From Oceanidesulfovibrio indonesiensis (GTDB lineage Bacteria > Desulfobacterota > Desulfovibrionia > Desulfovibrionales > Desulfovibrionaceae): 64,000 nucleotides of DNA. Made by a program: the position numbers and the translations under genes. This document shows positions 1,789 to 14,616 of the stretch, one piece after another (the stretch's first letter is position 1; each line of letters begins with the position of its first letter). Where the stretch lies: the NCBI RefSeq assembly GCF_007625075.1, contig NZ_QMIE01000010.1:1-64000 (forward strand), written 5' to 3'. The notes beneath the pieces were generated by a model, which did not search any database, had not been told where the DNA came from, and saw nothing but the letters and a program-made list of their open reading frames with translations.

Positions 1789-3060
1789 TCAGCAGCCCTC
1801 GCCCGAGCCGCCGCACGCCGTGCCGCAGGTGCTGGGCTTTTTGTGCATCAGCTTGCTCAGGTCGCCGCCCTGGTAGACGGCCTCCAGGCCCTGCTCGATG
1901 AAGCCGGACATCGCCACCACCGTGACGCCGGATTTCTCCAGCACTTCCCGCGGCGTGGGGCCTATGGCCGCGCAGAGCAGCGCGCGGCAGTCCTTGAGCG
2001 AGGCGGCGAGCGCTTCCCAGCGTTTGGGGCCGCCGCCGATGTCCGGGGCGTCGCGCTCCTCGATCATCTCGAAGGTCCCGTCCTTTTCCGTCCATATCTG
2101 GAGCACGGGCGCCTCGCCCAGGTGCTGGTTCACGAGCAGGCCTTCATGGCTGGTTACGGCCACATGCGGCCGGGCCTCGAAGCGGGGTATCTCCATGGTC
2201 GAACACTCCTTGAGGCAGCTTGAGAGTTCGCCGGAACGGTCTTCGTCCAACAGACCCACGGCGTCCGCCCGGCAACGCCGGCAGTGACGCATGAGCGGCA
2301 GGTGCTGCTCCGCGGCGGCGCGGGCCTTGCGCAGCATCTCGCCCCCGGGCTCCTCCAGATCGCCGAAGGGCGTGCCTTCCACGGGCTTCACGGGCAGCAC
2401 GTTGAGTATGTCCACACCGAGCTCCTTCATGGTCACGGCGATGTCCTCCACGTGCTCGTCGTTCACGCCGGGGATCAGGATGGTGTTGATCTTGACGATC
2501 ATGCCCAGGCCCTTTGCCTTCTTGATGGCGCTGAGCTGGCGGGAAAGCAGCAGTTCCGCACCCTCGCGGCCCTGGTAGACGACCTTGCCGTCGCGCACCC
2601 AGCCGTAGATCTTCGCGCCGATGGCCGGGTCCACCGCGTTGACCGTCACGGTGATATGGCTCACGCCGGCGGCCGCGAGCTCGTCCAGCTTTTCTTCCAG
2701 GGCCAGGCCGTTGGAGGAGAGACAGAACAAGAGGTCCGGGTGCTTCTCATGCAGCCGGCGGATGGTCTCCAGCGTTTCGTTCTGGTTGGCCATGGGGTCT
2801 CCCGGGCCGGCGATGCCCACCACGGAGATGCGCGGCTCCTTTTCGAGCACGCGGTCCATGTAGCGCGCGGCCTGGGCCGGGGCGAGAATTGCCGAGGTCA
2901 CACCGGGCCGGCTCTCGTTCACGCAGTCGTAGCGGCGGTTGCAGAAGTTGCACTTGATATTGCAGCGCGGCGCCACCGGCAGGTGCACCCGGCCGTAGCT
3001 GCCCTTGGCGTCTTTGTTGAAACAGGGATGGCGTTCGGAGTTCGGGAGTGTGGTTCTCAT
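1789..3060 (-). CDS. nifB: nitrogenase cofactor biosynthesis protein NifB
   Basis: This 423-residue protein is a radical SAM enzyme that builds the 8Fe-9S-C core (NifB-co) for FeMo-co. It has the N-terminal HPCF, the SAM-cluster motif CNIKCNFC (Cys33, 37, 40) followed by RRYDC and NESRPGV, and the second cysteine motif HCRRCRADAVG (Cys260, 263). A C-terminal NifX-like domain (about 295-395) ends in a Cys/Gly-rich tail. Start ATG 3060 is preferred because an aaagga site lies 10 bases upstream; an ATG 9 bases earlier is too close to that site. It is the last gene of the nif operon, 80 bases after nifN. Confidence 0.95.
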   Translation of the reverse strand: MRTTLPNSERHPCFNKDAKGSYGRVHLPVAPRCNIKCNFCNRRYDCVNESRPGVTSAILAPAQAARYMDRVLEKEPRISVVGIAGPGDPMANQNETLETIRRLHEKHPDLLFCLSSNGLALEEKLDELAAAGVSHITVTVNAVDPAIGAKIYGWVRDGKVVYQGREGAELLLSRQLSAIKKAKGLGMIVKINTILIPGVNDEHVEDIAVTMKELGVDILNVLPVKPVEGTPFGDLEEPGGEMLRKARAAAEQHLPLMRHCRRCRADAVGLLDEDRSGELSSCLKECSTMEIPRFEARPHVAVTSHEGLLVNQHLGEAPVLQIWTEKDGTFEMIEERDAPDIGGGPKRWEALAASLKDCRALLCAAIGPTPREVLEKSGVTVVAMSGFIEQGLEAVYQGGDLSKLMHKKPSTCGTACGGSGEGC

Positions 3061-3141
3061 GGCGGTCATATCCTTTGCGCCGCTTGGGCGCGGACTCGCA
3101 GACTGGTGAAAGCGAAGTATTCCAGCAGACTGTGCAGGATG

Positions 3142-4530
3142 CTAGATGTAACCCCAGCCAAGTGGCGAATCGGCCTGCTTCTTTTCAATGACTGCGTTCA
3201 CAAGCCGGTCGAAGAGGGCGAGGGTTCCCTTGTAGCCAAGGTGCATGGTCCGCTGAGCGCCGAAGCGGTCATGGACGGGAAAACCCACCCGCACCAAAGG
3301 CACGCTCCAGTCGCGCGCCATGCGGTAGCCCTTGGAGTTTCCTATGACGAGGTCCGGCGCGAGTCGCTCGGCCTCGTTTCTTATCTCGTAGAAGTCCACG
3401 CCGGGCATGACCTTGGGCGGCTCGCGCAGAATGCCGTCTGTTGCTTCCTCGATGGCCGCGGGCAGACGGCCGGAATTGCCGCCGGAGGCCACGAGCACTG
3501 GCTGGATGCCGATCTCCGTGAGCATGGCGACTAGGCCGGCCACGAGGTCTTCCTCGCCATAGACCACGGCGCGTTTGCCGGAGATGTACTTGTGGCCGTC
3601 CACCATGGCGTCCAGCAGCCGGCCGCGTTCCTTGACGTGGCGGGTCGGGGTCTCCCGGCCGCTTATCGCGTCCAGAGCGGCGAAGAAGGCGTCCGAGTTG
3701 CGCAGGCCGATGGGCATGGGCAGTCGATGGAGGTTTACGCCGTGGTTTTCCTGCAGGGCCGTGCCGCCGGTCTTTTCCGCACCGGCCAGCACCGCGCCCA
3801 GTTCCACCGTGGCGCGCGCGCCGGACATGGCGCGGACGGCCTCCACGGGCGTGCCGCCGGAAGGGATTTTCTCGTAGTCTTCCAGGGCCGGACCATCGAG
3901 GGTGTCGGAGTAGTCCGGCAGCATGGTCACGGCCAGACCGTAGTCATCAAAGATGTCGCGCAGGTGGCGCAGATCCTCGGGCGAGACGAAACCAGGGAGC
4001 AGATTCACGCCTTTGTGGCGCTCAACGGCCGGGTCCGGCAGTTGTTCGCAGACCGCGCGCACCGCGGCGTGGAAGCCTTCCATGTGCGAGCCCTGGTAGG
4101 AGGGCGTGGCGACCCACACGAGGGTGGGCAGGTCCAGGTCGCCGAACTCCTTCCGGAACTCGTGCAGGATCATGGGTACGTCGTCGCCGATGGTCTCGGT
4201 GAGGCAGGTAGTGGCCACGCCGATGACCTCGGCCCCGTACTTCTTCATCACGTTGATGAGGCCAAGCTTGAGATTGGGGCCGCCGCCGTAGATGGCGTGC
4301 TTTTCACCGAGGGCGGAGGAGGCGATGTCCACAGGCTCGCGGTAGTGGCTGATGAGGTAGCGCCGCATGTAGGTGGCGCAGCCCTGGGAGCCGTGCAGGA
4401 AAGGCACGGCGCCTTCGATGCCGCGAAAGACCACGGACGCGCCCAGCGGGGAGCAGGCCTTGCAGGCGTTGGTGGTGGAGACGTAGTCCACCTTCTCGGG
4501 CTTGATTCTTTCGATGGTTTCGACGGTCAT
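3142..4530 (-). CDS. nifN: nitrogenase MoFe cofactor scaffold subunit NifN
   Basis: NifN is the beta-like subunit of the NifEN scaffold on which NifB-co is matured to FeMo-co. The 462-residue protein keeps the family signatures TTNACKACSPLGAS, HGSQGCATYMRRYLISHYREP and TTCLTETIGDD. Start ATG 4530 overlaps the nifE stop in an ATGA junction and has aaggagg 8 bases upstream. A longer in-frame start 21 bases earlier lies within nifE and lacks such a site. It is translationally coupled to nifE. Confidence 0.95.
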   Translation of the reverse strand: MTVETIERIKPEKVDYVSTTNACKACSPLGASVVFRGIEGAVPFLHGSQGCATYMRRYLISHYREPVDIASSALGEKHAIYGGGPNLKLGLINVMKKYGAEVIGVATTCLTETIGDDVPMILHEFRKEFGDLDLPTLVWVATPSYQGSHMEGFHAAVRAVCEQLPDPAVERHKGVNLLPGFVSPEDLRHLRDIFDDYGLAVTMLPDYSDTLDGPALEDYEKIPSGGTPVEAVRAMSGARATVELGAVLAGAEKTGGTALQENHGVNLHRLPMPIGLRNSDAFFAALDAISGRETPTRHVKERGRLLDAMVDGHKYISGKRAVVYGEEDLVAGLVAMLTEIGIQPVLVASGGNSGRLPAAIEEATDGILREPPKVMPGVDFYEIRNEAERLAPDLVIGNSKGYRMARDWSVPLVRVGFPVHDRFGAQRTMHLGYKGTLALFDRLVNAVIEKKQADSPLGWGYI

Positions 4531-5966
4531 ATCGCGCCCTCCTTCATGCATTCTTCAGGCGCACCCAGGCTGCATGCGGAGTCTATATTGTTGGACTCAA
4601 GAGAGGCTTTCTTTCCTGCCGTGCGGCGGGGCACGAATCGCCATACCGGGCTCATCACTGTGCGGTGGACTTCCTCGGCGAAGTTGACCATGCCGACGAA
4701 ACCTTCCAGGCACTCCTTGCGCTCGTGGTTGTGGTCGCAGAAGCCCACGCCGAGTTTGTAGGCGATGGGCCGCTCCTTGACGCCGCCCACGAAGATGTCC
4801 ACGTCTTTCTCTTTGATAAATGCCTGGAGTTCCAGCGGGTTGGAGTCGTCCACGATGATGGTGCCAGGATCGGTGATGGCCTCAAGCTCGGCATAGTCCT
4901 CCCTGGTGCCGGTCTGGGAGCCGACAATGGCGGTCTGCATGCCGAGGTGTCTAAAAGTCTTGACAAGAGAGAACGCCTTGAACGCGCCGCCCACATAGAT
5001 CGCGGCCTTCTTGCCTTCCAGGTCTTTGCGCAACTCTTTGATGCGCGGCATGATCGCCCTGATCTCTTCGGACACTACCTTCTTGGTGCGCTCCATGATT
5101 CCGGGGTCCTTTTCCGCAAAGAACCGCGCGACGTCGTAGAGCGCCTCGGACATGTCCTCGATGCCGAAATAGGAAACGCGGATGTAGGGGATGCCGTACT
5201 CCTCCTCCATCATCCTGGCGAAGGGCAGCGTGGCGCCGGAACACTGGACCACATTGAGCGCAGCGCCGTGGGAGCGTCGGATGTCCCCCACCCGGCCGTC
5301 GCCCGTGACGTTGGCCACGGTCTGCACGCCCATGCGCTCGAAGTAGTCGCGGATCACCCAAATCTCTCCGGCCAGGTTGAAGTCGCCGAGCAGGTTGATG
5401 GACAGGGGCGAGATGTCGTCGATGGGCGCAGTGCCGGCCAGACGGATCATAGCCTTGCACGCGGCGTCGTAACCCTCGCGCTTGTTGCCCTTGAAGCCCT
5501 CGGACTGGACCGGGATGACGGGGACGCCCTTCTCCTTTTCCACGCGCCTGCAGACGGCCTCCATGTCGTCGCCGATGATGCCGACTATACAGGTTGAATA
5601 GACGAATGCGGCTTTAGGCTCGTGCCGGTCGATGAGCTCGCAGAGCGCGCGGTACAGCTTCTGCTCGCCGCCGAAGACCACGTCGTTCTCCCTGAGGTCC
5701 GTGGAAAAGGACAGGCGGTGCAGCTCCGGTCCGGAAGAGACTGCGCCGCGGATGTCCCACGTGTAGGCGGCGCAGCCGATGGGGCCGTGCACCAGGTGCA
5801 GGGCGTCGGCTATGGGATAGAGCACGACCCGGGAACCGCAGAACACGCAGGCGCGCTGGCTCACGGCGCCGGCCAGGCTGTCGCGGTTGCAGGCCATGTC
5901 GAACGGCTCGGCCCCGCCCTTCACATGTATCTGGTTCTTCCGGTCTTCAAAAATTGGCTGCGTCAT
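4527..5966 (-). CDS. nifE: nitrogenase MoFe cofactor scaffold subunit NifE
   Basis: This 479-residue alpha-like subunit of the NifEN scaffold has QRACVFCGSRVVLYPI, LHLVHGPIGCAAYTWDIRGA and YSTCIVGIIGDD, which supply the cluster-binding cysteines (Cys40, Cys65 and one near 123). It is preceded by aaggaag and followed by nifN with a 4-base overlap. A GC-rich repeat (6040-6130) separates it from the ferredoxin gene upstream. Confidence 0.95.
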   Translation of the reverse strand: MTQPIFEDRKNQIHVKGGAEPFDMACNRDSLAGAVSQRACVFCGSRVVLYPIADALHLVHGPIGCAAYTWDIRGAVSSGPELHRLSFSTDLRENDVVFGGEQKLYRALCELIDRHEPKAAFVYSTCIVGIIGDDMEAVCRRVEKEKGVPVIPVQSEGFKGNKREGYDAACKAMIRLAGTAPIDDISPLSINLLGDFNLAGEIWVIRDYFERMGVQTVANVTGDGRVGDIRRSHGAALNVVQCSGATLPFARMMEEEYGIPYIRVSYFGIEDMSEALYDVARFFAEKDPGIMERTKKVVSEEIRAIMPRIKELRKDLEGKKAAIYVGGAFKAFSLVKTFRHLGMQTAIVGSQTGTREDYAELEAITDPGTIIVDDSNPLELQAFIKEKDVDIFVGGVKERPIAYKLGVGFCDHNHERKECLEGFVGMVNFAEEVHRTVMSPVWRFVPRRTAGKKASLESNNIDSACSLGAPEECMKEGAI

Positions 5967-6039
5967 TACGTCTTCCTTGGGCTATTCCAGCAGATTTTTT
6001 AAACAATTGGCTCGTAACGTCCTCAATCCTTTTCTCGGT

Positions 6040-6132
6040 TGCCGAGGGGCTTTCCGCCAGGGAGCATTGCCCCCTGGACCCAGGTCAGGGGTCCAGGGGA
6101 TCACCGATCCCCTGGCCGCCGGGGGCTTTTTC
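6040..6132. repeat. GC-rich intergenic palindromic repeat inside the nif operon
   Basis: The segment contains nested inverted repeats: cccctggacc (6071-6080) with ggtccagggg (6090-6099), and ccaggggatc (6093-6102) with gatcccctgg (6106-6115). The two stems share bases, so two alternative hairpins are possible. It ends in ggggctttttcttt on the plus strand. It lies between the ferredoxin gene and nifE, both on the minus strand, so it would be transcribed inside the nif message. Confidence 0.6.
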
Positions 6133-6153
6133 TTTGTTGTCGTCGTAATGTCG

Positions 6154-6456
6154 TTAGTCCAATGCGTATTCTTCAGCCACGCCGCCCTCTTCCAGGGCGT
6201 CCAGAATAGCGTCCACGGCTTCCTCGCTGTCCACGTTGCCGTACCAGAGATTGTTCGGGTGGATGACGATCACGGGGCCGTCGTCGCATTGCTTGAGACA
6301 ACCGGTCGTGGTGAGCAGGGCGTCTAAACCGCGATCCAGAACCTCTTCCTCGATATACTGAGCGAGGCCGTCGGTCTTCTTGTGGCAGACGCCCTTGGGT
6401 TCACCCTTGGCGCGGAATGATTGACACATGAGAATGTGATACGTGGGCTTGGCCAT
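6154..6456 (-). CDS. thioredoxin-like 2Fe-2S ferredoxin of the nif cluster
   Basis: This 100-residue protein shows MCQSFRAKGEPKGVC, LTTTGCLKQCDDGP and VIHPNNLWYGNV, the signature of thioredoxin-fold 2Fe-2S ferredoxins, with four cysteines arranged as two pairs. Its position between the NifB-like gene and nifE suggests an electron carrier for nitrogenase or cofactor maturation; that role is inferred. Start ATG 6456 is chosen because gaaggaggaa lies just upstream. The open frame extends 27 bases further without a ribosome site. Confidence 0.85.
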   Translation of the reverse strand: MAKPTYHILMCQSFRAKGEPKGVCHKKTDGLAQYIEEEVLDRGLDALLTTTGCLKQCDDGPVIVIHPNNLWYGNVDSEEAVDAILDALEEGGVAEEYALD

Positions 6457-6495: not shown

Positions 6496-7698
6496 TTATT
6501 GTCTTCCTTTGCCCCGGCCTTTCGGCTTGATGCCGAAAGCGTGGAGCACTGCCCCTTGCAGTGGGGCGTCGTTGTAGACGCGTACGTCGATGCCGTATTC
6601 GGCAAGAATGGTGCGCGGATTATCCCCGGCGCCGGCGGCAATGAGTACCTTGACGTCCGGAAGCACCTCGGCGAGGGCTTTCCAGCGATCGCTGCCGCCC
6701 CCACGGGGGGGAGTCAGGCGCGCCTCGCGCAAGGTGACGAGGCCGTTGTCGTTGCCATAGACAAGGAGCTTTTCGGCATGGCCAAGGTGGACGTCCACAG
6801 CCTCGCCGTCGGACGTTGCCACGGCCACATATGGCCGGTTGCGATCCGGCATGGGGCGGTCCGTCACGACGTCCGCTTCTGTCGCGAGCTTGATTCGCCG
6901 CAGCAGGATTGCAGCTTCCTCCTCGCCGAGCAGTGATGCGCCATCGCCTCCCATGTCGCCGAGTTGAGCATCCGGCACGACGGTGCGGACAGCGCTGAGC
7001 GCTTCGTCCATATCGGCTTGCGTTGCGGGCCGGGCCTTGCCCAGGCCGGACTTCTCCCGCGGCTCGAAGGGCACGAGTTCGATACGATCCACGCCCCAGT
7101 TCTTCAGTCTCTCAGCGATTTCAGCCACGTTGGCCTTGTTGACTTCCGGAGCCACCGGCACGACGGCGGTCACGCGCAGGCCGTGGTGTTTGGCTTCGGC
7201 AACGCCCTTTTCCTGCTGGGATACGAAAACTTGCATGGCCTCTTCCCCACGCAGGGAGCGCTTGCCAGTGCGTATGAATGCCACGAAGCTGCCGAGCCGA
7301 AGCGGATCGGTATCGGCCACGGCCAGCCTGACTTCCTTGACTCCGGCTTCGGCCAGATCCCGGGCGTATCCGGGCAGGGCCAGACCATTGGTCGCCACGC
7401 TGATGCGCACATCCGGATGGCGCTCGGCCACGAGCTGCGCCGTCGCGAGTGCCTCATCGGGGCGGGCCAGCGGCTCCCCGGGACCGGACAGGCAGACTTC
7501 CACGGATACCTCGACCTTCTGCAGAATCGCATCGAGGTAACCAGCCGCCTCCCTGGGCGTAAGCGTCTCGGAAGCGACGCCGTCGGGAGCGGTGAAGACG
7601 CAGTCCAGATTCCTGTCGCAGAAGCGGCACTGCACGTTGCAGAGCGCCGAGACGGGAAGCCTGATCCGGCTGAGGGTATGCGCGGTTGTGGACGTCAC
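6496..7698 (-). CDS. NifB-like radical SAM protein with NifX-like domain (divergent paralogue)
   Basis: This 400-residue protein has the same two-part plan as NifB: a radical SAM domain with CNVQCRFC (Cys20, 24, 27) and a later cysteine in RNLDC, then a NifX-like domain (about 280-390). It lacks the N-terminal HPCF, the NESRPGV segment and the HCRRCRADAVG motif of true NifB; the equivalent region (QLGDMGGDGASLL) has no cysteine. It therefore probably does not make NifB-co as canonical NifB does. GTG 7698 is chosen as start because ggag lies 6 bases upstream; an in-frame ATG at 7776 would add residues unlike NifB. It sits between nifK and the ferredoxin gene. Confidence 0.8.
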   Translation of the reverse strand: MTSTTAHTLSRIRLPVSALCNVQCRFCDRNLDCVFTAPDGVASETLTPREAAGYLDAILQKVEVSVEVCLSGPGEPLARPDEALATAQLVAERHPDVRISVATNGLALPGYARDLAEAGVKEVRLAVADTDPLRLGSFVAFIRTGKRSLRGEEAMQVFVSQQEKGVAEAKHHGLRVTAVVPVAPEVNKANVAEIAERLKNWGVDRIELVPFEPREKSGLGKARPATQADMDEALSAVRTVVPDAQLGDMGGDGASLLGEEEAAILLRRIKLATEADVVTDRPMPDRNRPYVAVATSDGEAVDVHLGHAEKLLVYGNDNGLVTLREARLTPPRGGGSDRWKALAEVLPDVKVLIAAGAGDNPRTILAEYGIDVRVYNDAPLQGAVLHAFGIKPKGRGKGRQ

Positions 7699-7799: not shown

Positions 7800-9182
7800 C
7801 TAGTAGACCAGCTCGAAGCTCTCCACAGGGTTGTCGCGATCCAGACGAGAGAGGAGCGCGTCAACAATCTTCTCGAGAAGCCGCATGGCTCCGCGATACC
7901 CGACAGTCGGGAAGTACTGGTGTCCCACACGATCGATGATCGGAAATCCGTGGCGGATGTGCGGGATGTCCTCGTCTTTGGCGATGTACTTGCAATACGT
8001 GTTGCCCATGATGAGATCGACGGGCTCGTTCTTGATCCACTGGTGGAGCAGGAACATGTCGCCGTGCTCTTTCATGTTGGGCGTGAACGGCGCGTCCTTG
8101 GTGATCTCCTCTATGCGCTTGTAGAACATCTTGCCTGGCGTACCGGTGACTATGTGCACGGGCTGCATGTCGATGGAGACCAGGAAATCGGTGAGCGCGA
8201 TGAGCTGGTCCGGATCGCCGACCAGAGCCACCTTCTTGCCGTAGAAGTACTGGTGGTAGTCGGAGATGAGGTCCACGAGCTGACCGCGCTCGTGGAGGAT
8301 GGACTCGGGCACGTTCACGCCGCCCAGGCGCCGCAGGGTGTCCACGAACAGGTCTGTGTTGTTCAGCCCGATGGGCAGCGGCAGGACGTTGCAGGGCACC
8401 TTGAACTCCGTGTCCAGGAACCGCGCGCCGTCCGCCGAAGCCCACTCGCCCAGGGCGAGGGTGCCGCGGCTGTTGGCGCTGTCCTTGAGCTCCGCAGGCG
8501 TCACGCCGCCTTCAGGGAACATTTTGTACTCGCCGGTCAGCGGACCGTTGAGCACGCCGGAGGTGTCCGGCATGACTATGGTCTTCACCTTCATCAGCTC
8601 GGCCAGACGCTTGATCTCCTCCATGTCCGAGGGCTCCACGAACCCGGGGATGATGTTGACCTTGCCGTTCTTGGTGCCGGAGGCTTCGGCAAAGTCCTTG
8701 ATCATGCCGCGGACCATGTTCGCAAAACCCGTGACGTGGGAGCCGGCATAGGACGGCGTGGACGCGGAGACGACATACTTTTGGTCCGGGACCTTGCCTT
8801 CTTTCTTGGCCTTGTCCACGATCTGGGGCACGTCGTCGCCAATGGTCTCGGAGAGGCACGTGGTGTGCACGGCGATGACGTCCGGCTCGTAGACAGTGAA
8901 TATGTTGTTGATGGCCTGCACCAGGTTGGCCTGGCCGCCGAAGACCGAGGAGCCCTCGGTGAACGAGCTGGTGGCTGCTGAAACGGGCTCTTTGTAGTGC
9001 CGGGTCAGCATGGACCTGTGGTAGGCGCAGCATCCCTGCGAGCCATGTGAATGGGGCAGGCAGCCGTGGATGCCGAGGGCCGCGTACATGGCGCCGATGG
9101 GCTGGCACGTCTTGGCCGGGTTGATGGAGAGCGCCTTGCGGTCCATAACCTCGGTAGGTGTATGGCGTAGAAGCTTACTCAT
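7800..9182 (-). CDS. nifK: nitrogenase MoFe protein beta subunit NifK
   Basis: This 460-residue structural subunit of dinitrogenase carries P-cluster cysteines at Cys26 (KTCQPIG), Cys51 (GSQGCCAYH) and Cys109 (TTCLSETIGDD). The spacing equals that of Azotobacter NifK with a constant 44-residue shift, so the long N-terminal extension of proteobacterial NifK is absent. ATG 9182 has aggaacg upstream. nifD ends 20 bases before it. Confidence 0.97.
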   Translation of the reverse strand: MSKLLRHTPTEVMDRKALSINPAKTCQPIGAMYAALGIHGCLPHSHGSQGCCAYHRSMLTRHYKEPVSAATSSFTEGSSVFGGQANLVQAINNIFTVYEPDVIAVHTTCLSETIGDDVPQIVDKAKKEGKVPDQKYVVSASTPSYAGSHVTGFANMVRGMIKDFAEASGTKNGKVNIIPGFVEPSDMEEIKRLAELMKVKTIVMPDTSGVLNGPLTGEYKMFPEGGVTPAELKDSANSRGTLALGEWASADGARFLDTEFKVPCNVLPLPIGLNNTDLFVDTLRRLGGVNVPESILHERGQLVDLISDYHQYFYGKKVALVGDPDQLIALTDFLVSIDMQPVHIVTGTPGKMFYKRIEEITKDAPFTPNMKEHGDMFLLHQWIKNEPVDLIMGNTYCKYIAKDEDIPHIRHGFPIIDRVGHQYFPTVGYRGAMRLLEKIVDALLSRLDRDNPVESFELVY

Positions 9183-12985: not shown

Positions 12986-14521
12986 TTACCGCCCCCGGCG
13001 CTCGGCAACCATTCCTTCCAGGCCGAACTTCTTGATGCGGTAGCCCATCTGCCGCAGCGTTATGTTCAGTTCACGCGCGGCGCGGGACTGCACCCAGCCG
13101 TTGCGGTCCAGAGCGGCGATGATCTCGTGCTTCTCGATGTCCTCCAATGAGGCAAGTTCCGTCGGTCGCTGCACCGGCTTGTCCGTCATGTGAAAGAAAA
13201 AGGACGGAATGTCCCCGAGCTCGATGGCGTCGCCGTCCGTCATAATGGACAAGCGCTCCATGAGGTTCTCCATCTCCCGCACGTTGCCCGGCCAGTCGTA
13301 GCGCACCATGGCGTCCAGAGCCTTGGAGGTGAGCCGCAGCCGCCGGTCATACTCTTTGGAGAGCTTGTCCAGGAAATGGTTGAGCAGCGCCGGTATGTCT
13401 TCCTTGCGTTCACGGAGAGGCGGCACCAGTATGGGGAAGACGTTAAGCCGGTAATAAAGATCCTCCCGGAACCGTCCGGCCGCGACCTCAGCCTCCAGAT
13501 TCTTGTTCGTGGCCGCCACGATGCGCACGTCCACCTTGCGCGTCCTGGTGGAGCCGAGCCGCTCGAATTCCCGATCCTGCAGAAAGCGCAGCAGCTTGAC
13601 CTGCACATTCATGGGAATCTCGCCAATCTCATCCAGGAACACCGTCCCCTTGTTCGCCTCCTCGAAGCGGCCGGCCTTGGGATCCGACGCTCCGGTGAAC
13701 GCACCCTTCTCGTGGCCGAAAAGCTCGCTTTCCAGCAGCGTTTCCGGCAGGGACGCGCAGTTGACCATGGTGAAGGTGTGGTTGGAGCGGTCGGAGAGCT
13801 CGTGGATGATCCGTGCGATGAGCGACTTGCCCGTGCCCGACTCGCCCAGAAGCAGGACCGTGGCCTTGGTGGGCGCGACCTTCTCAATGAGCTGGAGGAC
13901 CCGCGCCATGGGCCGGCTTTTTCCAACGATGAAAAACCGCTGGTAATTCTTGGAGAGCTTGGCCTTGAGGCTGACGTTCTCCAGCCGCAAATCCTCCTCC
14001 CGCGCGCGGACCTGGCGCTGGATGTTCACCACCTGGGAGATGAGCGTGGCCACGATGGTGAGGAAGCGGATGTCCTCTTCAAAAGAGACTTCCGGGCCGA
14101 AGAGGCGGTCCACGTTGAGAACGCCGATGGGGTGGCCATGCAGCATGATGGGCACGCCGATGAACGAGACCTTGTCCTTCTCGAATCGGCGAGACTTGGT
14201 TTTGTCCAGAAACAGCGGCTCCTTAGCGATGTCCGGCACCACGAACGGCTTGGCCGTGCGGAAGATGCGGCCCGTGACGCCTTCATCCAGATTGTAGACC
14301 CCGCGCATGACCTCTTCTTCTGTGAGACCGTGTGATGCGCGGATAAGCAGCTTCTCGGACTGGTCGTCCTGCAGCGTCACCGTGGCGCGCTTCATGGAGA
14401 GCTCCTCGCTCAGAATGCGCAGGATGACGCCGATGGTCTCTTCGAGGTCCAGAGTCTCGCCGATGACGCGACTGATCTCGTACAAGACCTGGAGTTCGAG
14501 GGCTATGAGGCTCTGACGCAT
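12986..14521 (-). CDS. nifA: sigma-54-dependent nif activator NifA
   Basis: This 511-residue enhancer-binding protein has an N-terminal GAF domain (about 15-165), a AAA+ domain (about 195-430) with Walker A GESGTGKS, the sigma-54 contact loop GAFTGA and an R-finger region, and a Fis-type HTH at the C-terminus ([20 protein letters not shown]). The linker after the AAA+ domain has no cysteine pair, so it differs from the oxygen-sensing NifA of rhizobia. ATG 14521 is preferred over a TTG 30 bases upstream. Being adjacent to nifH supports nifA over other activators. Confidence 0.9.
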
Positions 14522-14616
14522 GATGGTTCGCCCCGAGGCGTTTGGGTGCAATGGAAATGGATGCCTGTACTGGTGTTACCATAATGTCGTTTTCACGAAT
14601 TTGCAAAATACTTTTT

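Follow-up and report, generated by a model that had tools for sequence, protein, structure and literature searches.

The 64,000-nucleotide window analysed here (positions 1 to 64,000 of contig NZ_QMIE01000010.1, Oceanidesulfovibrio indonesiensis) carries, between nifK and a 2Fe-2S ferredoxin gene, a gene (6496-7698, minus strand; 400 aa, GTG start with GGAGA upstream) encoding a paralogue derived from the cofactor maturase NifB. One NifB-descended family fills this nifK-ferredoxin slot in Desulfovibrionales, Desulfobulbales and relatives, and the slot protein is probably, judging from its sequences, a carrier of the NifX/NafY type for a precursor of the nitrogenase cofactor or for the finished cofactor, made out of a NifB that is dead or dying and has ceased to build the NifB cofactor (NifB-co). 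At the level of sequence, the ligand sets of clusters K1 and K2 are lost from the window protein and the radical S-adenosylmethionine (SAM) motif from nearly all of its relatives, while the NifX-like domain with its HLG motif is fully kept and the place between nifK and the ferredoxin is fixed.

The window protein exceeds the Pfam cut-offs for both Radical_SAM (PF04055; 59.3 bits, cut-off 29.5) and the NifX-like domain Nitro_FeMo-Co (PF02579; 6565-6810, minus strand; 36.4 bits, cut-off 26.3), and has 32% identity over 366 columns (E 1e-60) to the NifB encoded at 1789-3069 of the same window, confirming the description, in an earlier note made from the sequence alone, of a second NifB-like protein with both domains. 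The motif losses listed there are likewise borne out: HPCF (the HPC motif, with K1 ligand Cys30) is absent, NESRPGV is replaced by FTAPDGV, with T, P and D at the ExRP positions, and HCRRCRADAVG (CxxCRxDAxG, K2 ligands) by LGDMGGDGAS, one residue shorter. Additionally, TxTxN reads RLAVA and AGPG reads SGPG, so that A is lost and GPG kept. Not stressed in that note, the radical-SAM motif CX3CX2C (CNVQCRFC, Cys20/24/27; 7618-7641, minus strand) and the cysteine of the following DC are both intact in this copy. With the NCBIfam nifB model (TIGR01290, cut-off 343.65 bits) the window protein scores 161.6 bits, a shortfall of 182 bits, against 386.8 for the local NifB; eight features of NifB membership are lacking from it and one, CX3CX2C, is present.

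NifB of M. acetivorans binds three [4Fe-4S] clusters, the SAM cluster through Cys50/54/57, K1 through Cys30/63/129 plus His43, and K2 through Cys264/274/277 (PMC6053413, PMC7145814). In the window protein, Cys30, His43 (Arg; Lys in the related protein of genome G001), Cys129 (Ser) and the K2 CxxC pair are missing, and the equivalent of Cys63 is retained (Cys33; 7600-7602, minus strand). A search for equivalent cluster ligands elsewhere in the protein found none: it has five cysteines in all (20, 24, 27, 33 and 69), three of them in the radical-SAM motif. Because K1 and K2 take six cysteines, five are too few, and by its sequence the window protein cannot synthesize NifB-co by the known mechanism.

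Loss goes further in the rest of the family. Slot proteins comprise 157 rows, including copies of one locus, and the 147 full-length rows reduce to 118 distinct proteins. CX3CX2C, kept in 52/52 NifB rows, is found nowhere in 113 of the 118 (here called eroded) and is present in five, namely a four-member clade that includes the window protein and one authentic NifB. HLG is kept in all 118, and GPG in 108 of the 113 without CX3CX2C. In the window protein HLG lies at 6781-6789 (minus strand), its His304 being equivalent, by motif alignment, to His35 of NifX and His121 of NafY. Among the 113 eroded proteins, which are not independent rows, the equivalents of Cys30, His43, Cys129 and the second cysteine of the K2 CxxC occur together in 44 (e.g. 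G005/L104, G008 and G021), that of Cys30 alone in 27, none of the four in 15 and another subset in 27. The 44-member branch may thus have a 3-Cys/1-His metal site in its barrel, where the retained K1-type set is possibly a holding site rather than a building site.

A scan of named genomes with a ferredoxin alignment gave 307 loci, and among the best 80 the slot upstream of the ferredoxin holds a full-length NifB-like protein without CX3CX2C in 53. A motif-bearing protein is found in two (L053, close to the window type, and L093, the authentic NifB), a NifX-only protein in one (Desulfomicrobium L131), and in eight nifK directly precedes the ferredoxin (19-159 bp). Ordinary nifB lies before the ferredoxin, in another gene order, in nine; in three the slot gene is cut by a contig end, and four are unclear, three of them at contig ends, with a NifB-like protein lacking the motif ~2 kb upstream in one of the four (L081). 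NifX-only proteins also occupy the slot in four genomes of order-family f4. The slot protein of Desulfoluna limicola (L093, 5076-6521) was rejected as a member of the slot family and counted apart, as every NifB motif is present and it groups with NifBs; here an authentic NifB sits between nifK and the ferredoxin. A D. vulgaris plasmid was also set aside: the strongest hit examined (DP4) is a real nifB, and nifK and the ferredoxin gene of DP4 lie 203 bp apart with no gene between them.

The search of the window's own family covered 288 genomes and led, with matches up to E 1e-43, to a count of 113 ferredoxin places from 112 of them, window included (G251, G063 and G138, weaker or broken, were left out). 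The slot holds a NifB-like protein without the motif at 73 places and one with it at four (the window's genome, G001, G015 and G246), and is cut by contig ends at three. No slot protein is found at 31 places where nifK is seen, nor at two where nifK falls outside the stretch, one in G032 (its contig is that of L060, in which nifK lies 48 bp off) and the other being the second ferredoxin locus of G180. By genome, the slot protein is present in 77 of the 112 that bear the ferredoxin and missing in 32. Named loci and G genomes overlap (e.g. L053 is the organism of G246), so the two counts are not additive. The pairing with a dedicated 2Fe-2S ferredoxin that the earlier note had proposed holds beyond the window, where the adjoining gene lies at 6154-6456 (minus strand): the ferredoxin is within 160 bp of the slot gene in 65/65 family hits over 400 bits, a line drawn with a model of eroded slot proteins; the window's clade falls below it, as do the most divergent members, their scores not exceeding those of NifB. 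The ferredoxin is the more widespread of the two and is also found without the paralogue.

The slot family shares common descent from NifB, as judged from the sequence trees. In a tree from which the fingerprint-motif columns were removed (34 of 70 slot rows, 28 of 52 NifB rows and two enterobacterial NifB outgroups), a single clade unites 33 slot proteins (ultrafast bootstrap 100, SH-like approximate likelihood ratio test, SH-aLRT, 99); it arises from within the NifBs of this bacterial group, adjacent to five NifB rows (98/99), and L093 falls among the NifBs. NifBs of other phyla are represented by the two enterobacterial outgroups only, so that the trees speak to the duplication within this group. 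The window protein, G001, G015 and L053 form one clade (100/100), whose members are 44-75% identical to the window protein and which is sister to the other 29 slot proteins with moderate support (90/66); another tree leaves this deepest branch order unresolved. FastTree trees of full-length, barrel and NifX-domain sequences (112 of 122 rows) all set 62 slot rows, L093 excluded, apart from 49 NifB rows plus L093. Independent local duplication in the window's genus is rejected by the single clade of 33 slot proteins, and the barrel-only and NifX-only FastTree trees, both of which place the window's clade outside the NifB rows, reject a recent exchange in which the local NifB donated the radical-SAM half. 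Chance or a frame artefact is ruled out by the match to nifB together with purifying selection. In a tree of the NifX-like domain that includes outside NifX and NifY, 35 NifB-like slot rows and five NifX-only slot proteins form one clade (SH-aLRT 100) that excludes enterobacterial NifX and NifY as well as the NifX domain of NifB, in an alignment of few columns where half of the forks stay open. Parsimony suggests that the NifX-only slot proteins arose by loss of the barrel, a direction that the domain tree does not resolve.

Loss is graded and constraint is inverted. From the 52 NifB rows, 70 positions invariant in 97% or more of them were scored; G015 and L053 retain 70% of these, the window protein 40% and G001 39%, compared with a mean of 36% (range 24-57%) in 62 eroded proteins (slot rows counted without L093 and the three truncated ones); the NifX-only proteins would be the end of this series, if loss is the right direction. 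In 27 genomes that have both proteins (L093, three truncated rows and four genome copies omitted; 351 pairs, which are not independent), mean identity in NifB is 66% for the barrel versus 56% for the NifX domain, the barrel being higher in 350 pairs, and in the paralogue 39% versus 56%, the NifX domain being higher in 346. The conserved half is thus the barrel in NifB and the NifX-like domain in the paralogue; the NifX domains of both change at the same pace, and the barrel of the paralogue has been set free. Ratios of nonsynonymous to synonymous substitution (dN/dS; Nei-Gojobori, one genome pair, window versus its congener G001) are 0.21 overall, 0.25 for the barrel and 0.13 for the NifX domain of the paralogue, and 0.15 and 0.20, respectively, for those of NifB; as dS differs between the genes (0.77 versus 0.35), comparison of domains is safer than comparison of genes. 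Within the eroded barrel GPG, P111, G121, Q178 and N203 (numbering of the window NifB) are nevertheless kept at 97-100% in 62 rows.

Predicted structures point the same way for eroded and motif-bearing members. The AlphaFold2 model of the window protein (mean predicted local distance difference test score, pLDDT, 89.2; pLDDT only 58 for residues 31-40, just after the radical-SAM motif; predicted template modelling score 0.78) best matches NifB 6y1x_A (Z 30.7, root mean square deviation 2.1, 238 aligned). That of a fully eroded protein from Pseudodesulfovibrio pelocollis (pLDDT 84.6) also best matches 6y1x (Z 30.2, deviation 2.3, 237 aligned), and the nearest non-NifB radical-SAM folds to both reach Z ~19-20. 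The NifB barrel is thus retained in both models, which predicts that eroded members are folded pseudo-enzymes rather than wreckage. Foldseek also lists a match of the window model to the NifX chain of NifENX (9ian_F; E 3.6e-7, 102 columns).

With the nifX model TIGR02663, no frame in the 12 genomes searched scores above 28.3 bits, the best being the slot protein of G015; the remaining matches are to NifB or slot proteins, apart from frames of 132 aa in G054 (23.2 bits) and 135 aa in G046 (21.9 bits). The window protein itself gives no match at E 0.01 or 0.001, a weak yes/no test. The model cut-off of 112 bits is passed in 0/14 control genomes, so that a lack of matches over it says little; enterobacterial NifX and NifY, which score 71.6, 81.0, 87.3 and 90.9 bits, all below it, were hence used as the yardstick. 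The window's genome has four NifX-like domains, in NifB, the slot protein, an ATPase fusion and a 150-aa frame. The latter two lie on contig C9 (L240 and L239): a 416-aa Mrp-type ATPase, probably of the candidate MrpORP type, is fused to a NifX-like domain with HFG, and ~3 kb away the 150-aa NifX-like frame has RFG in place of HFG. Pantoea and Rahnella encode, between nifT and nifE, a 220-224-aa protein of the NifX family, presumably NifY by its place.

A carrier is favoured because HLG is kept while the catalytic cluster is lost, because no better match to the NifX model was found in the 12 genomes, and because enterobacteria have a NifX-family protein between nifT and nifE. Of the roles offered in the earlier note, that of a cluster carrier is the best supported, from the loss of CX3CX2C in 113/118 slot proteins, HLG in 118/118 and NifX-only slot proteins in one lineage; a different radical reaction fails as the general job of the family and is possible for the window's four-member clade. 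NifX His35 ligates an apical iron of NifB-co during handover to NifEN (PMC13128457), and NafY, with His121 as cofactor ligand, delivers the iron-molybdenum cofactor (FeMo-co) to NifDK (PMC8496260). In a carrier of this kind, His304 would act like His35 of NifX and bind an apical iron of NifB-co (or FeMo-co); the barrel, retained as a fold, would dock to NifEN, NifDK or NifB or help to hold the cargo, and the ferredoxin may supply or take electrons in cluster assembly or handover. The [4Fe-4S] loop persists in the window's clade, where it may be a remnant, serve as a redox site or retain some activity. The cargo may be either NifB-co for NifEN or FeMo-co for NifDK: descent from NifB fits NifX, and the place beside nifK fits NafY.

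Several observations sit less well with a carrier. The radical-SAM loop, which a pure carrier does not need, is kept in 4/4 members of the window's clade, and GPG, presumably part of the SAM-binding region by the usual assignment, is retained in eroded proteins from which the cluster motif has gone, a poor fit. As 32 of the family's 112 genomes with the ferredoxin have an empty slot, the protein helps without being essential, and its step is dispensable where the slot is empty. The K1-type set retained in 44 of the 113 eroded proteins and the wider spread of the ferredoxin than of the paralogue are further poor fits. The HLG histidine is also kept in 48/52 NifB rows, and its retention alone therefore does not separate a carrier from a remnant. 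The tail of slot proteins is mostly basic (GG[GK]K in 114/146 rows; that of the window protein is basic without this motif), whereas NifX of A. vinelandii uses residues 144-158 at its C terminus to dock to a positive patch of NifE (PMC13128457). NifB of K. oxytoca, moreover, works without its NifX-like domain (PMC5715403). As a separate observation, the NifBs of L076, L096, L110 and L122, in the ferredoxin-after-nifB order, have KLG in place of HLG and so have lost the cluster-binding histidine.

It is possible, if unlikely, that the window's clade is instead a still active radical-SAM/cluster enzyme with another reaction, in which SAM-bound [4Fe-4S] would act on the cargo of the NifX domain or on a partner protein. 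CX3CX2C and the DC cysteine intact in 4/4 members, GPG in three of them (GSG in G001), the NifB barrel of the window model (Z 30.7) and the overall dN/dS of the paralogue, too low for free decay, would all suit such an enzyme. Set against this, the motif has gone from 113/118 distinct proteins with the same place and partner, the window protein and G001 keep hardly more of the NifB-invariant positions than the eroded mean (n=62), and the barrel is the fast half. A combined reading, distinctly improbable in our estimate, makes this clade a living intermediate: the SAM-binding [4Fe-4S] cluster of the former NifB would still act on a cluster held by its own NifX domain (finishing, repair or loading, not carbide insertion), while the large eroded branch kept a K1-like 3-Cys/1-His set in the barrel, so that a scaffold that once built the cofactor core came, by two routes, to hold it.

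Just as improbable is a flux-regulating pseudo-NifB, which would either pair with NifB or act as a placeholder or antagonist at the NifB site of NifEN or NifDK, a role suggested for NifY and NafX. The predicted retention of the fold without catalysis would be consistent with this, and the five elements kept at 97-100% in 62 eroded rows imply that parts of the barrel are under selection. Yet the proteins for which placeholder or antagonist roles have been suggested are NifX-family members without the cluster-binding histidine (PMC13128457), whereas HLG is present in 118/118 slot proteins. An ordinary second NifB still making NifB-co, for which the NifB fold and radical-SAM motif of the window copy might speak, is scarcely credible given too few cysteines for K1 and K2, a score 182 bits below the model cut-off, a place outside the NifB clade (100/99) and Arg at the position of His43, whose replacement by Ala blocks K- to L-cluster conversion in M. 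acetivorans NifB (PMC7145814). A decaying pseudogene without function, to which the fast barrel could be ascribed, has next to no likelihood with an open frame, a dN/dS of 0.21 (0.13 in the NifX domain) and a place conserved in 77/112 ferredoxin-bearing genomes of the family.

The slot protein differs from each of the closest known systems. It shares with NifB (the FeMo-co maturase, TIGR01290) the two-domain layout, the barrel fold and common descent, but lacks HPC, ExRP, TxTxN and CxxCRxDAxG, scores under the model cut-off and falls outside the NifB clade, and most of its relatives also lack CX3CX2C. With NifX, the carrier of NifB-co to NifEN, it has in common the NifX-like domain with a cluster-binding histidine and the fold match to 9ian_F; it is distinguished by an N-terminal degenerate barrel of ~280 residues, the basic tail, a separate domain clade and the lack of a TIGR02663 match at E 0.001. 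Compared with NafY and NifY, NifX-family proteins with an extra N-terminal domain, its place between nifK and nifE matches that of the NifX-family gene of Pantoea and Rahnella, but its own N-terminal domain is a NifB-type barrel instead of their small N-domain, and its domain clade is again separate.

Proteins of this kind may have been met before. Arragain et al. (2017; PMC5715403) cut their set of putative NifB from 390 to 289 (28% in their words); most of the excluded entries lack CX3CX2C, each has a NifX domain, and the authors took them for NifX. No retained barrel, nifK-ferredoxin slot or intermediate clade is described in the accessible parts of that paper. Beyond this remark no description of a NifB-like or pseudo-NifB slot protein was found in the accessible parts of the open-licence literature, which is no proof of absence, and those of PMC3464626, PMC3733012, PMC4287615 and PMC7341956 make no mention of it. 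New here are the family's common descent, its retained barrel, its fixed position beside the ferredoxin, the inverted constraint and the intermediate clade that includes the window protein. By domain searches these genomes appear to have two NifBs and no NifX, and finding Radical_SAM and Nitro_FeMo-Co together in a protein encoded beside nifK does not prove that it is a functional NifB. If the carrier reading is true, sulfate reducers turned a spent NifB into a cofactor carrier of their own, and proteins ranging from motif-intact to NifX-only are surviving stages of that change; the family would then be a natural test of which parts of NifB build the cluster and which hand it on, and a source of candidate carriers for nitrogenase engineering.

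The nitrogenase locus of the window is read on the minus strand in the order nifH, two P-II genes, nifD, nifK, the paralogue, the 2Fe-2S ferredoxin, nifE, nifN and nifB. The genes at 7800-9182, 4527-5966 and 3142-4551 (all minus strand) we take to be nifK, nifE and nifN, respectively, names backed by homology and synteny. The authentic nifB (1789-3069, minus strand), with all fingerprint motifs present, has two in-frame ATGs, at 3069 and 3060, the second of which the earlier note had used. The product of the ferredoxin gene is thioredoxin-like and falls under the cut-offs of PF01257 and NF041612, yet is a clear match (68.5 bits, E 6e-19). The gap between this gene and nifE (5985-6160) is predicted to form strong RNA hairpins (minimum free energy -63 kcal/mol, z -2.3; 3/200 shuffles equal it), perhaps a processing or attenuation site setting the dose of nifE. 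Upstream of nifH, 12986-14551 encodes a GAF/sigma-54 activator/Fis protein, presumably NifA-like. At 339-1549, a gene without a Pfam match at 1e-4, which overlaps a DUF4325 STAS-like gene, looks by eye like an anti-sigma-type ATPase.
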